A stretch of DNA of 64,000 bases from Bacteroidia bacterium (lineage in GTDB: Bacteria; Bacteroidota; Bacteroidia; M30B66), in contig JAGYKL010000001.1 in the NCBI GenBank assembly GCA_018401705.1, positions 1 to 64,000 of the forward strand, given 5' to 3'. Of this stretch, positions 30,199-38,160 are shown piece by piece. The position numbers and the translations under genes are program-made. The notes beneath the pieces are model-generated. The model saw only the letters and a list, made by a program, of their open reading frames with translations, had not been told where the DNA came from and searched no databases. How positions within the stretch are numbered: the first letter of the stretch is position 1; each line of letters begins with the position of its first letter.

Positions 30199-30894
30199 AT
30201 GAAGTTATTGTTACCAGCCATTTGTTTGGCACTATTAGTTAAGATGCCAGCCATTGGGCAAGAGATTATTATTAATGAATCTAATATTAATGATACGTTG
30301 GTAAAGAAGGTTGGTCCAAACTACAAACACTTTACCCATCCATTTATGAGTTTTGGTGCAAATGCTATGTTGGGTGAATCTGGAGCAGAGTTGAAACCCG
30401 GTTTAGATTATTTTGATTTTGGCGTTAGGTATAAATATAGAATAGCAGAGCCACTTGCAGTGGGATTTGATCTCGCTTATAGCAGCACTACTTTTAGACT
30501 CAAGCAAACTGGTTCTAAAAACACTCCTGACACTGCCTTATATGATGCTCAAAGAATGCATTTTCATTCAGCTAGACTTGGTGTATATTTTAGAATTAAT
30601 TATGGAAAAAGGGGAAATTCTCTAGGTAAGTATGTTGATTTAGGAGCTTATGGAGAGTATCTTTTCGCACACACTTTATTTACAAAAATAACTTTGGCAG
30701 ACGGCTCTGTTGCTCGAATCAACAGAAGTAAATTAAAATATTATCAGCCTATAAACTATGGTTTGCAGGCTAGAATTGGCTTTAATAAACTTGTTTTATT
30801 TGCTAATTATAGATTATCAAATGCATTCTTTGCACCATATAACTTTACAGAGCTTCCGCCTTTAATTGCAGGGGTGCAATTTGTTCTTAAATAA
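30199..30894 (+). CDS. Outer membrane beta-barrel protein
   Basis: Signal peptide from 'MKLLLPAICLALL'; alternating beta strands ending 'PPLIAGVQFVLK'. The provided ORF begins at 30184. Confidence 0.65.
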   Translation: MKLLLPAICLALLVKMPAIGQEIIINESNINDTLVKKVGPNYKHFTHPFMSFGANAMLGESGAELKPGLDYFDFGVRYKYRIAEPLAVGFDLAYSSTTFRLKQTGSKNTPDTALYDAQRMHFHSARLGVYFRINYGKRGNSLGKYVDLGAYGEYLFAHTLFTKITLADGSVARINRSKLKYYQPINYGLQARIGFNKLVLFANYRLSNAFFAPYNFTELPPLIAGVQFVLK

Positions 30895-32028
30895 TGGCAA
30901 AGATTGCAGTCAACACACGCTTATTGCAAGAGGGAAAGCTCGAAGGCATTGGTTGGTTTACTTATGAGACTTTAAGGCGCATTGTAAAGGCACATCCAGA
31001 GCATGAATTTTTGTTTATTTTCGATAGACCTTTTAGCAACAAGTTCATTTTTGCCAATAATGTAAAGGCTATTTATTCAGGGCCTCCAACACGACATGTA
31101 TTCCTTTTTATTCCTTGGTTTGATTTTATTGTTCCAAGATTACTTCGAAAGCATAAAGTAGATTTATTTGTAAGTCCAGATGGTCATATCCCACTTAGAG
31201 GCACTACGCCATCTCTTGCAGTTATTCATGATATAAATTTCCACCATCATCCTGAGCAATTGCCTTTTTTAGTTCGGAAGTACTACAATTTTTTCTTCCC
31301 TCGATTTGCGAAAAAAGCAAAGAAAATAGTCACAGTTTCTGAGTTCACTCGTAGTGATTTAGTTGAGAGTTACTCTGTAGAAAGGGACAAAAATTGATGT
31401 AGTATATAATGGCTGTAATGAAATTTTTAAGCCAATTTCGAACGATAAAAAGATTGGAAGTAAAAATACACTGCAGGTGCTGATTACTTTCATTTGTTGG
31501 CCTAATTATTCCAAGAAAAATTTACCCTGTCTCATTGAGGCATACATCTGCTCTAGGAGAAAAGCGAAAAGTCAACTGCTATTGGTTGTTGGGAGAAAAA
31601 TGGTGGGATTCAAAAATGAAGAACTTATTTTAGACAGTCCTTATAAGAACGATATTATCTTTTCTTGGAAGACTGAGGCAGAGGAATTGCATGAAGTTGT
31701 AGCGAGCGCATATGCTCTTACGTTTGTGCCTTTGTTTGAAGGTTTTGGAATACCTGTTCTGGAAGCGTTTGCCTGTGGAACCCCAGTTATTACATCAAAT
31801 ACAACGTCACTTCCTGAAGTAGCGGGCGGAGCGGCTTTGTTGTGTAATCCTTATGAGGTTGAATCAATTAGCGAAGCCATGCATAAACTTTCGTGCGATG
31901 AAGAACTAAGAAACTTCTTTGATTTCTAAAGGACTAGAAAGGAAAAGGCATTTTCTTGGGATAAAACTGCTTCATTTTATGGACCAGTATTGAAAATTCA
32001 CTGGGATAAAAAAAAACTGGCTCCCTAG
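30894..32028 (+). pseudogene. Family 1/4 glycosyltransferase interrupted by several frameshifts (possibly assembly errors)
   Basis: 'MAKIAVNTRLLQEGKLEGIGWFTYETLRRI', then in another frame 'AGADYFHFVGLIIPRKNLPCLIEAY', then 'VPLFEGFGIPVLEAFACGTPVITSNTTSLPEVAGGAALL'. Reading frame restored only by indels near 31390, 31470 and 31600. Confidence 0.75.
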
Positions 32029-34083: not shown

Positions 34084-35251
34084 TTATAACATTTCAAAAA
34101 TTCCGGCTGCCTGCCCTGTTCCAACGCACATAGTTGCCATTCCGTATTTGCCATTCCGCTTTTTTAATTCGTTCATAATTTGGACAGTAAGCTTTGCCCC
34201 AGTGCAGCCTAATGGGTGTCCTAAGGCGATTGCACCGCCATTTACATTGAGTTTTGATGTATCGATATCTAATTCTCTAATAATAGCAAGAGATTGAGAT
34301 GCAAAAGCTTCATTAAGTTCAATTAAATCCATTTGATTGAGTGTCATTCCAGCAGCTTTCAATGCTTTAGGAATTGCTTCAACTGACCAATTCTCATGAT
34401 ACGAGGAGTGAACTCCAGCAACACCGTATGAAACCATTCTTGCCATAGGTTGAAGGTTAAGTTCTTTTACCATCCTTTCAGACATCACCAGAACAAATGC
34501 GGCACCATCGGAAGTTTGGGAGGAATTTCCCTGCCGTTACTAAGCCATCGGCTGCAAAACCGGCTTTAGTTTTGCCAATTTATCTATTGCCGTATCTGCT
34601 CTGGCCCTTCATCAGTATCAACTATGTAAGTTTTTGTTTTGCGTTTTTTCTTCGTCTAAATACACTTCATTGATCTCAACCGGGACAATATCGTCTTTAA
34701 AGCGGCCTCATTAATAGCTTAATGCCTTCATATGATTCATATGAGAAAGCATCCTGGTCTTCTCGACTAACCTTAAATTCTCTTGCTACGGCTTCAGCAG
34801 TAAGTCCCATGCCCCAATAATAATCGGGATTTTCTTTTGCTACTTCATAATTAGGAACGATGCGCCATCCTCCAAAAGGAATTGGCGACATACTTTCAAC
34901 ACCACCTGCAATGATACAATCGGCCATACCACTGTTAATTTTTGCCGTTGCTATTGCAATTGTTTCCAGACCTGATGCACAATACCTGTTTACAGTCATG
35001 CCTGGCACTTTGTCGGTGTTAAGTCCCATTAAAGAAACCATTCGACCAATGTTAAGACCTTGCTCGGCTTCGGGAGTTGCATTGCCCACGATGATGTCAT
35101 CAATTCTTTCTTTATCAAGCTGCGGAACTTGCTTGATAAGATGCTCAATTACAGTTGCAGCAAGATCATCTGGGCGAGTAAAACGAAACATTCCTCTTGG
35201 AGCCTTTCCAACTGCAGTGCGGTATCCGGTAACTATATATGCTGTTTTCAT
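34084..35251 (-). pseudogene. fadA: Acetyl-CoA C-acyltransferase (thiolase), frameshifted (possibly assembly errors)
   Basis: 'GYRTAVGKAPRGMFRFTRPDDLAATVIEHL', 'VNRYCASGLETIAIATAKI', then after 34697-34488 disruption '[18 protein letters not shown]...[20 protein letters not shown]...[15 protein letters not shown]'. Confidence 0.82.
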
Positions 35252-35267
35252 TTTTGTATTTTTATGA

Positions 35268-35756
35268 GATATTCGATTAACGATAAACGAGATTCGATTT
35301 ATGTAGCTGATTTTCGATTGTTTCTATCTATTTCAATTTGAATTCTCTTTTGAAGGCTGCAATTCATTCTTTTTATGTGATCTATGTTATCTAAAATCCT
35401 TATTCTACTCGTATCATCTATGTATGATCTTCTACAGGATAATTCAATCTGAAAAATCAATTCATTTGCAGAACCATTAGCTATCCCTAAGAAGTGATAA
35501 AATTCTCTGTTTGAATTTCGACCTGCTCCTTCAGCAATATTAGACCCAACTGAAACAGCAGCTCTTCGCATTTGAGAGGATAATCCCCATAATTCCTGAG
35601 GAGGGAAAGCATCAGTGATATTGTATATTTCTTGAGCCAAATCAAGTGCTTTATTCCAAACAGTTAATTGATAAACATTATGCATAATCTACAATTAAAG
35701 AGTGTGCTGGCCATATTCATTATTTATCGGTCTTCGAAATTCGCTTATCGAACATC
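35268..35756 (-). mobile_element. Putative IVS-like insertion: four-helix-bundle gene bounded by imperfect inverted repeats between fadB and fadA
   Basis: Left arm 35268-35283 GATATTCGATTAACGA; right arm 35741-35756 reverse complement GATGTTCGATAAGCGA (13/16 identical), weaker similarity inward; encloses the 35299-35685 ORF. Confidence 0.45.
35299..35685 (-). CDS. Four helix bundle protein (S23/IVS-encoded protein family, Avd-like fold)
   Basis: 'LTVWNKALDLAQEIYNITDAFPPQELWGLSSQMRRAAVSVGSNIAEGAGRNSNREFYHFLGIANGSANELIFQIELS'. Confidence 0.88.
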   Translation of the reverse strand: MHNVYQLTVWNKALDLAQEIYNITDAFPPQELWGLSSQMRRAAVSVGSNIAEGAGRNSNREFYHFLGIANGSANELIFQIELSCRRSYIDDTSRIRILDNIDHIKRMNCSLQKRIQIEIDRNNRKSAT

Positions 35757-38160
35757 AGTTCCTCAACACCTTTCCTGTTTTGAGAATACTCTGAACCCTT
35801 TCAAGAGTTTTGCGCTCTGCACAAAGGCTTAAGAATACTTCCCGTTCAAGATCGAGGAGATATTGTTCTGAAACTTCTGTTGGTTCTGATAAATCACCTC
35901 CACATAAAACGTAACCCAATTTTTCTGAGATAAGTTTGTCATGTGCTGAAATGAAATGTCCACTAAACATTGTATTTGCGCCTGCATAAACCATCCCTAA
36001 CCCAGTGCGACCTAACACTTTAATATCCTTTCTTTGGACCGGTTTAGTGTATCCTGCTTCAGCAAGTTCAATAGCTGTTTTTTTGGCTTCGGCGATAAGT
36101 CTTTGTCCATTGGGTACAATTCTATCTTTCCCTTTTCTAAGGATACCTAGATCAAATGCTTCTTCAGCGGATGTTGAAACTTTTGCCTGACCAATAGTGA
36201 GGAATTTGTCTCTCAAGGTATTAAGCATGATATCACCATCTCTAAATGCGTCAGAAGCTCTCAGAGCAAACTCCTTTGTTCCTCCCCCGCCAGGGATTAA
36301 ACCAACGCCAAACTCAACTAAACCGATATACGTCTCGGCAGCAGCCACAACCGCATCAGCATGTAGATTGAGTTCACATCCCCCGCCAAGGGTTAAACCA
36401 TGAGGAGCCGAAACCACTGGTATTGAGGAATATCTAACTCGCATCATTGTATTTTGAAATGCACGAATTGAGAAATCAATTTCATCGTATTCCTGCTCAA
36501 CAGCCATCATAAAGAGCATTGCCAGGTTTGCACCAGCAGAGAAATTAGCACCGTCATTACCGACTACTAATCCCCTGAAATCTTTTTCGGCGATATCAAT
36601 AGCCTTTTGCACTCCTTGCAGCACTTCACTGCCAATGGAGTTCATTTTAGTATGAAATTCAACATTAAGAATTCCGTCTCCTAGGTCGGTAACAGTTGTT
36701 CCTGAATTTTTCCAGATTGTATTGTTTGGCCTAATGTGATCTAGAATGATGAAATTCTCATAACCCGGAACAGGTAAGTAAGATTTTGTTGGAATATCGT
36801 AGTAGAGTTTCTTGCCATTTTCAACTTTGTAAAAGCTAGTGTTTCCAGCTTTTATGAAATCATGAACCCAAGAAGCAACTTCAATTCCCTGCTCTTTCAT
36901 TTTATCGATACAGGAGGCTACTCCCATATAATCCCAGCTTTCGAAGGGCCCCACTTCCCAACCAAATCCGGCTTTAACACCTTCATCGATACGATAAAGT
37001 TCATCGGCAATTTCGGGAATGCGATTAGAGACATAAGCAAAAAGCGCGAAAAAAGATTTGCGGTAGAACTCTCCTGCTTTGTCTTTACCAGAAATAAGCA
37101 CTTTATACCTCTCCTTAAGCCCCTCTATAGGCTTGGTGGCCTCAAGAGTGGCGAATTTCACCTTCATTTGAGGTGTATATTCAAGTGTGATAAGGTCGAG
37201 AGATAAAATCTCAGTCTTGCCGCCTTCGCCTTTAGTTTTCTTATAGAATCCTTGACCAGTCTTATCGCCTAACCAGCGATTTTCATTCATTTTAAGGACA
37301 TATTCAGGCAAATGAAAAAGCTCACGAGCTTCATCCTCCTTACAATTATCTCTTAAGCCATTAGCAACGTTAACCAAAGTATCGAGTCCAACTACATCGG
37401 TTGTTCTGAAAGTAGCTGACTTAGGGCGGCCAAGAACCGGACCTGTAAGTTTATCTACTTCTTCAACTGTTAGGCCCATTTCTTTAACGATGTGGAAAAG
37501 AGCAAGAATCCCAAAAACCCCAATTCTATTGGCAATGAATGCAGGTGTATCCTTAGCAAGAACTGTTGTTTTACCTAAGAAAAGATCACCATAATGCATC
37601 AGAAAATCCACTACAGATTGATCAGTTTGAGCAGTTGGAATTATTTCGAGAAGCTTGAGATATCTTGGAGGATTGAAAAAGTGCGTTCCACAAAAGTGCT
37701 TCTTAAAATCATCAGAGCGGCCTTCCAACATGCTGTTGATGGGAATCCCTGAAGTATTTGAAGTAATTAGTGTTCCAGATTTTCTGAATTGTTCAACCTT
37801 CTCAAAAACGGACTTTTTGATATCGAGACGCTCAACAACCACCTCGATTACCCAATCACATTCAGCAATTTTCTTCAGGTCATCTTCAAAATTCCCTGTA
37901 GTTATTCGATTTGCTGTAGTTTTATGATAAACAGGAGATGGCTTTGACTTGAGAGCAAAGGCTAAAGCTTCGTTTACGATTCTGTTTCTAACGGCTGGAC
38001 TTTGCAAAGACAAACCTTTAGCAGTTTCCTTTTCGTTTAGTTCACGAGGAATAATGTCAAGTAAAAGTACTTCAACACCAATATTTGCAAAATGGCAAGC
38101 AATTCGAGAACCCATGACTCCCGAACCTAATACCGCAACTTTACGAATGTTTCTTTTCAT
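35755..38160 (-). CDS. fadB: 3-hydroxyacyl-CoA dehydrogenase / enoyl-CoA hydratase
   Basis: 'VAVLGSGVMGSRIACHFANIGVEVLLLDI', 'GTHFFNPPRYLKLLEIIP', C-terminal crotonase-type 'GANFSAGANLAMLF', 'GLTLGGGCELNLHADAVVAA'. Confidence 0.9.
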   Translation of the reverse strand: MKRNIRKVAVLGSGVMGSRIACHFANIGVEVLLLDIIPRELNEKETAKGLSLQSPAVRNRIVNEALAFALKSKPSPVYHKTTANRITTGNFEDDLKKIAECDWVIEVVVERLDIKKSVFEKVEQFRKSGTLITSNTSGIPINSMLEGRSDDFKKHFCGTHFFNPPRYLKLLEIIPTAQTDQSVVDFLMHYGDLFLGKTTVLAKDTPAFIANRIGVFGILALFHIVKEMGLTVEEVDKLTGPVLGRPKSATFRTTDVVGLDTLVNVANGLRDNCKEDEARELFHLPEYVLKMNENRWLGDKTGQGFYKKTKGEGGKTEILSLDLITLEYTPQMKVKFATLEATKPIEGLKERYKVLISGKDKAGEFYRKSFFALFAYVSNRIPEIADELYRIDEGVKAGFGWEVGPFESWDYMGVASCIDKMKEQGIEVASWVHDFIKAGNTSFYKVENGKKLYYDIPTKSYLPVPGYENFIILDHIRPNNTIWKNSGTTVTDLGDGILNVEFHTKMNSIGSEVLQGVQKAIDIAEKDFRGLVVGNDGANFSAGANLAMLFMMAVEQEYDEIDFSIRAFQNTMMRVRYSSIPVVSAPHGLTLGGGCELNLHADAVVAAAETYIGLVEFGVGLIPGGGGTKEFALRASDAFRDGDIMLNTLRDKFLTIGQAKVSTSAEEAFDLGILRKGKDRIVPNGQRLIAEAKKTAIELAEAGYTKPVQRKDIKVLGRTGLGMVYAGANTMFSGHFISAHDKLISEKLGYVLCGGDLSEPTEVSEQYLLDLEREVFLSLCAERKTLERVQSILKTGKVLRN

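Follow-up and report, generated by a model that had tools for sequence, protein, structure and literature searches.

A probable mobile IVS-type element, with an S23 gene between inverted heptanucleotide arrays, at a bacterial fadB-fadA junction

Introduction

Why does a gene of the 23S rRNA-intervening sequence (IVS) protein family lie between fadB and fadA, two cistrons of a protein-coding operon? IVSs that carry an S23 open reading frame (ORF) occur in the 23S rRNA of Coxiella, Leptospira and Brucella, and we know of no function assigned to S23/IVS proteins since the rRNA IVSs were described. Heptanucleotide repeats have likewise been catalogued in bacterial genomes without, to our knowledge, a cause being given. 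The S23 gene considered here lies in a stretch of 64,000 nucleotides from a Bacteroidia bacterium (contig JAGYKL010000001.1; hereafter, the window). A first-pass annotation of the window had described the gene as bracketed by inverted repeats and had proposed either a mobile element or an RNA-processing or insulating device separating fadB from fadA.

Results

An S23 gene inside a fad operon

The S23 gene described between fadB and fadA proved to be an intact ORF with arms on both sides (Table 1). In a profile search its product matched PF05635 (E=3e-35, 121 bits) as well as TIGR02436, and the invariant residues Q38, S45, N49, E52 and E75 are all kept. fadB, with its stop codon at 35755-35757, S23, and fadA, with its start at 35251, all lie on the minus strand, and the S23 ORF thus has the sense of the host transcript. 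The window genome contains four PF05635 matches, of which one is truncated; among 60 relatives, 49 carry at least one and the maximum is 16.

The suggested kinship with Avd of diversity-generating retroelements was borne out, as Pfam bAvd was also matched by 20 of 21 S23 relatives (best E 7e-12). S23 relatives of solved structure are 2RLD and 2GSC, the latter cited as a homopentamer (PMC4990558). The S23 element encodes no transposase, nuclease or reverse transcriptase. At the window locus, where the neighbours of S23 are fadB and fadA, a reverse transcriptase and a TR/VR pair were absent beside the gene.

The fadA reading frame is split, and the downstream acyl-CoA dehydrogenase and a glycosyltransferase (30894-31929) also look broken; the three together suggest indel errors in the assembly.

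Table 1. Features of the S23 element and its host operon in the window
Feature	Position	Strand	Basis or remark
fadB-type 3-hydroxyacyl-CoA dehydrogenase/enoyl-CoA hydratase, upstream cistron of host operon	35755..38160	-	
5' arm in RNA sense, degenerate heptamer array TGTTCGATAAGCGAATTTCGAAGACCGATA, starts in fadB stop codon	35716..35757	-	inverted repeat, lag-7 test, predicted terminal stem
S23/four-helix-bundle ORF, 128 aa, 23S rRNA-intervening sequence protein family	35299..35685	-	PF05635, TIGR02436
3' arm in RNA sense, degenerate heptamer array, overlaps last S23 codons	35268..35319	-	inverted repeat, lag-7 test
fadA thiolase, downstream cistron of host operon	34084..35251	-	one apparent frameshift near 34735 in assembly

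The ends of the window copy are heptamer arrays

The arms at 35268-35283 and 35741-35756 are complementary at 13 of 16 positions, exactly as first described; the right one overlaps the fadB stop codon and the left one lies just upstream of fadA, with 16 nt between arm and start codon. The 3' arm reads, on the plus strand, TTCGATT, AACGATA, AACGAGA, TTCGATT; the fadB side reads TTCGATA, AGCGAAT, TTCGAAG, ACCGATA. The three TTCGATT copies noticed earlier are real, with spacings of 21 and 20 and the third copy inside the 3' end of the S23 ORF; because the window arms are heptamer arrays, these spacings approximate three times 7.

Taken alone, the inverted repeat of the window copy is marginal (best arm-arm alignment p=0.059, dinucleotide shuffles). 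The lag-7 self-match of the two flanks is 51, a value reached by none of 5000 dinucleotide shuffles. The predicted fold is closed by a terminal stem with 24 flank-flank base pairs (shuffle mean 8.4; 24 was reached by 6 of 150 shuffles); the whole-element folding energy is ordinary (z=-0.11) and uninformative. The significance of the layout comes from the comparative data and not from the window copy alone.

The architecture recurs in operon junctions of many kinds

We aligned the upstream flank of each of 130 distinct Bacteroidota copies to the reverse complement of its downstream flank, alongside 390 control intervals, and scored flanks as complementary when they exceeded the 95th percentile of the mismatched-pair null. 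Complementary flanks were found in 71% of the copies, compared with 1% of the control intervals (MWU p=1e-45) and 5% of the mismatched pairs, and the median alignment score was 30.5 in S23 copies versus 16 in both mismatched pairs and control intervals. Matched arms self-matched at 0.50, 0.47 and 0.44 at lags 7, 14 and 21, with other lags near 0.28; a minority of copies have a period of 8 instead of 7, and arms were undetectable in about a quarter of the S23 copies. By GC skew, the arm 5' of the S23 ORF is rich in G in 84 copies, as against 3 copies in which it is rich in C.

A single common terminal sequence was considered for these ends and rejected, since copies differ in their heptamer word, also when they come from a single genome, while the two arms of each copy agree. 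Many further copies were found in many contexts, but the idea that they have the same ends is wrong if it means one conserved terminal sequence: what the ends have in common is their layout, with inverted heptamer arrays and a G-rich 5' arm. A plasmid search extended the range of S23 genes to plasmids of Cyanobacteriota, Azospirillum (Pseudomonadota) and Gemmatirosa (Gemmatimonadota), and 10 of the 12 plasmid loci read have inverted heptamer arrays, with words such as AGGGAAC, AGGGAGT, AAAAGCY and GGAYGAC. Among phage records, no S23 relative was found at the cut-off used.

Among copies that were not found through fadB, 76 lie between genes that both run in the S23 sense and 3 between genes that both run opposite (p=3e-19). 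The recurrent junctions are fadB|fadA, fadA|acyl-CoA dehydrogenase, sufB|sufC, nuoH|nuoI, the two metH halves and cas6|cas4, where fadB and fadA were named by Pfam scan and the other genes from sequence clusters or record annotation. An insulator specific to fadBA, one of the roles first imagined for the locus, is not supported, as the same element also occupies sufBC, nuoHI, metH, cas6-cas4 and other junctions.

A more general RNA role is rather unlikely. In such a role the arm hairpin would be processed, for example by RNase III, would attenuate or insulate between cistrons, and would be the reason that the element is kept. Arm complementarity that persists while the words differ, the strict sense orientation, and the established RNase III cutting of the rRNA relatives (PMC4990558) all speak for such a device. 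However, it accounts for neither mobility nor the 7-nt period, and most junctions do without the element.

Nostoc plasmids point to movement of the element

Mobility was most directly visible in a five-gene block of Nostoc plasmids, in which three plasmids carry an element between genes 3 and 4 and five lack it; on one of these five, an S23 element unrelated to it lies between genes 4 and 5. The three gene 3-4 elements are 98.3-99.3% identical, whereas their flanks are 86-95% identical, and one occupied plasmid has a flank that matches empty plasmids at 98-100%. In a second plasmid set, elements 99.4% identical sit in backbones 82% alike on one side, and a backbone that is 96-99% alike there is empty. 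Occupied/empty alignment of a third set gave further empty sites. The S23 element would thus seem to move, apparently by homing, since near-identical elements are found at the same site in backbones that are otherwise closer to empty plasmids.

The same-site cases might instead reflect homologous recombination between related plasmids over very short tracts, with no movement driven by the element. The plasmids do have long homologous flanks in common, and mosaicism is visible. Nevertheless, identities of 98-100% give way to 82-95% over the first 100 bp or so beyond the element, and at the left boundary, which is identical to the base among the gene 3-4 elements, flank haplotypes already differ 4-10 bp outside (AGRTTCTA). 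We therefore regard recombination as an unlikely source of the pattern. The mobile-element proposal gained support from the empty sites, the many copies and contexts, and the independent same-site acquisition on plasmids.

With regard to a target duplication, the occupied/empty plasmid alignments show repeats of 0-5 bp and small junction changes, with no constant or clean target-site duplication.

Occupancy of the fadB-fadA junction is patchy

We read 101 fadB-fadA junctions, of which 30 contain S23, 63 are empty and 8 hold another gene, and close relatives are discordant. The junction is empty in the nearest relative of the window genome, a member of the same genus, and within the family it is occupied in 5 and empty in 4. 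A comparison of relatives for empty sites had been proposed as a check on the mobile-element idea, with occupancy in all relatives counting against it, and empty sites were found even within genus and family. Some empty junctions retain arms without an S23 gene (L068, L089, L108 and L141).

fadB ends in TAA at 46 of the 63 empty junctions and at 10 of the 30 occupied ones (Fisher p=5e-4), a difference explained by the array beginning within the stop codon. A TA target inferred from this change was considered and set aside; many fad sites are compatible with it, whereas plasmid set B is not.

The S23 tree is grouped by context and partly tracks the host at fad junctions, from which we infer that many fad-junction copies were inherited vertically. 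Much of the fad clade indeed looks vertically inherited as judged from this tree, and the window copy is probably an old resident of its family and not a recent arrival. Local copying between neighbours is seen in L066 and L110, where sister S23 copies occupy two junctions of one fad operon. The context diversity and the plasmid data led us to reject vertical inheritance as an explanation by itself, although it still describes much of the fad clade.

These patterns bear on a further alternative, in which S23 has a settled function within the fad operon, such as regulating fadB/fadA stoichiometry, and is ancestral and often lost, with the repeats forming a regulatory stem. The S23 genes at fadBA and downstream of fadA do fall largely into one 56-row clade with genus-level congruence, and S23 and FadB identities are weakly correlated (rho=0.25). 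Nevertheless, the family appears in the same form in dozens of unrelated junctions, S23 is missing within the same genus and in many of the close relatives, and it was inserted independently on plasmids, which leaves this alternative improbable.

Other inserts were observed at the same place. In several Bacteroidota, what is apparently a MORN-like repeat gene replaces S23 at fadB-fadA (L047, L049, L057, L059, L062 and L117), and GTCATTGCGAGG-type and CCCCACCTAGCCTCCCC-type intergenic repeats occur there in Pedobacter and Flavobacteriaceae (L067, L071, L099, L101, L102 and L139). Inserts of more than one kind have fadB-fadA as a hot spot.

Heptamer arrays also occur without the gene

Arrays of the same NNCGANN word are present elsewhere in the window genome without S23. 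We surveyed random 20-kb stretches of S23-bearing and S23-less genomes of one class, so that density was estimated from a sample. There were 16 heptamer arrays in 0.80 Mb from 13 S23-bearing genomes and none in 0.73 Mb from 10 S23-less genomes (p=3e-5, uncorrected for phylogeny); lags other than 7 gave counts of 0-5. The link between S23 and arrays across genomes is a correlation within one class.

On the plasmids, a 182-bp gene-less element with heptamer arms is inserted in the S23 ORF of one Nostoc plasmid (L227:1264-1445). Its family, which has an internal palindrome-rich core, occupies 98 places on 43 cyanobacterial plasmid records, and the Nostoc block has additional gene-less and nested units where genes 2 and 3 meet.

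It is very improbable that the arms are ordinary slippage heptanucleotide repeats unrelated to S23, among which the gene lies by chance: S23-less heptamer repeats are frequent in these genomes and are the subject of separate descriptions (PMC4679880, PMC4692102), but slippage does not make inverted pairs of fixed strand polarity around one gene in 71% of cases, arrays were absent from the sampled S23-less genomes, and whole elements move as units.

Discussion

Comparison with known systems

The closest counterpart of the operon element is the rRNA IVS. In Coxiella burnetii, three tandem GACAGAT heptamers and one degenerate copy are reported just before the S23 ORF, with a heptamer number that varies between strains and a terminal stem that is cut by RNase III (PMC4990558). 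Both kinds of element have an S23/PF05635 ORF oriented like the host transcript, a terminal inverted repeat or stem, and a length of about 430-500 nt. They differ in that heptamers are found in the 5' arm of the Coxiella IVS (PMC4990558) and, as a rule, in both arms of the operon element, and in that rRNA IVSs lie inside the 23S rRNA gene whereas operon elements lie between cistrons of protein-coding operons. The window element, sitting between fadB and fadA, is therefore not a classical rRNA IVS. It appears IVS-like in its defining parts except location, and RNase III excision may be proposed by analogy. The IVS analogy drawn by the first-pass annotation thus holds for the S23 ORF, sense orientation, terminal stem and heptamers.

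Similar to REPIN/RAYT systems and MITEs, many gene-less inverted-repeat units exist beside few gene-bearing ones, and the gene-less units are dispersed and, in the sample taken, confined to genomes with the gene. Unlike REPIN/RAYT, the S23 element lacks a Y1/HUH transposase, the S23 domain being the only one in its ORF, and unlike both systems its ends keep only the heptamer period, inversion and strand polarity, with no conserved sequence. A likeness to diversity-generating retroelements is that Avd belongs to the same protein superfamily as S23 (PMC10053308); in contrast to them, the S23 element lacks a reverse transcriptase as well as template and variable repeats.

Xanthomonas, Nostoc, Beggiatoaceae and Bacteroidetes are all known to contain heptanucleotide repeats (PMC4692102, PMC4679880), with 70 inverted pairs in X. 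campestris (PMC4692102). The STRR-type repeats of Cyanobacteria, Xanthomonas, Beggiatoaceae and Bacteroidetes (GGGAATC, GGGGATT, TAACTGA) resemble the S23 arrays in being intergenic, in having a 7-nt unit and strain-specific words, and in sometimes forming inverted pairs; the keyword-matched passages on these repeats in PMC4692102 and PMC4679880 do not mention S23. Our searches of the open-licence literature found no paper that ties S23 to mobility outside rRNA, and among the papers found heptamers accompany S23 only in the Coxiella one (PMC4990558).

A putative mechanism

We consider it probable that the fadB-fadA junction of the window is home to a mobile IVS-type element, with inverted degenerate 7-nt arrays around a sense-oriented S23 gene. 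At the level of sequence, comparison established the architecture, the sense orientation, the patchy occupancy, independent insertion at the same site and the S23-less array derivatives. RAYT proteins are thought to mobilise REPINs, and S23 may act similarly. The S23 gene looks promoterless and would be expressed by read-through of the host operon. Its protein would recognise heptamer arrays in DNA or RNA and could help its own element to move, as well as S23-less arrays in trans. The transcript would form a terminal hairpin, which, judging from 23S rRNA IVSs, is a possible RNase III substrate for excision, and an excisable hairpin would make the stop-start codon junction a harmless home. An RNA-templated route of movement is conceivable by analogy, because S23 matches bAvd and Avd works with a reverse transcriptase in retrohoming (PMC10053308).

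More tentatively, we speculate that S23/four-helix-bundle proteins may characterise a pan-bacterial class of mobile elements whose ends are defined by format (inverted 7-nt arrays, fixed strand polarity, free word) and not by sequence. Such elements might home to operon junctions through an Avd-related, possibly RNA- or cDNA-level mechanism, and the heptanucleotide repeats of many bacterial genomes would be their non-autonomous remains.

Our data tie S23 proteins to heptanucleotide arrays, point to movement of the element, and show that, outside rRNA, it usually resides where two genes of an operon adjoin. The role of S23, the origin of heptamer arrays, and the way in which a mobile element with neither a recognised recombinase nor a fixed end sequence finds its site all become testable.

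Two junction settings were observed in addition. An S23 element with long heptamer arrays lies between cas6 and cas4 on plasmids of Pseudanabaena galeata and Anabaena sp. 90 (L206 and L210), and the setting in L210 is a type I-D operon. Three S23 copies occupy successive or nearly successive junctions of one gene cluster in two genomes (G017:C2:45151-48915 and G037:C1:116338-123580), which suggests local spread within operons.
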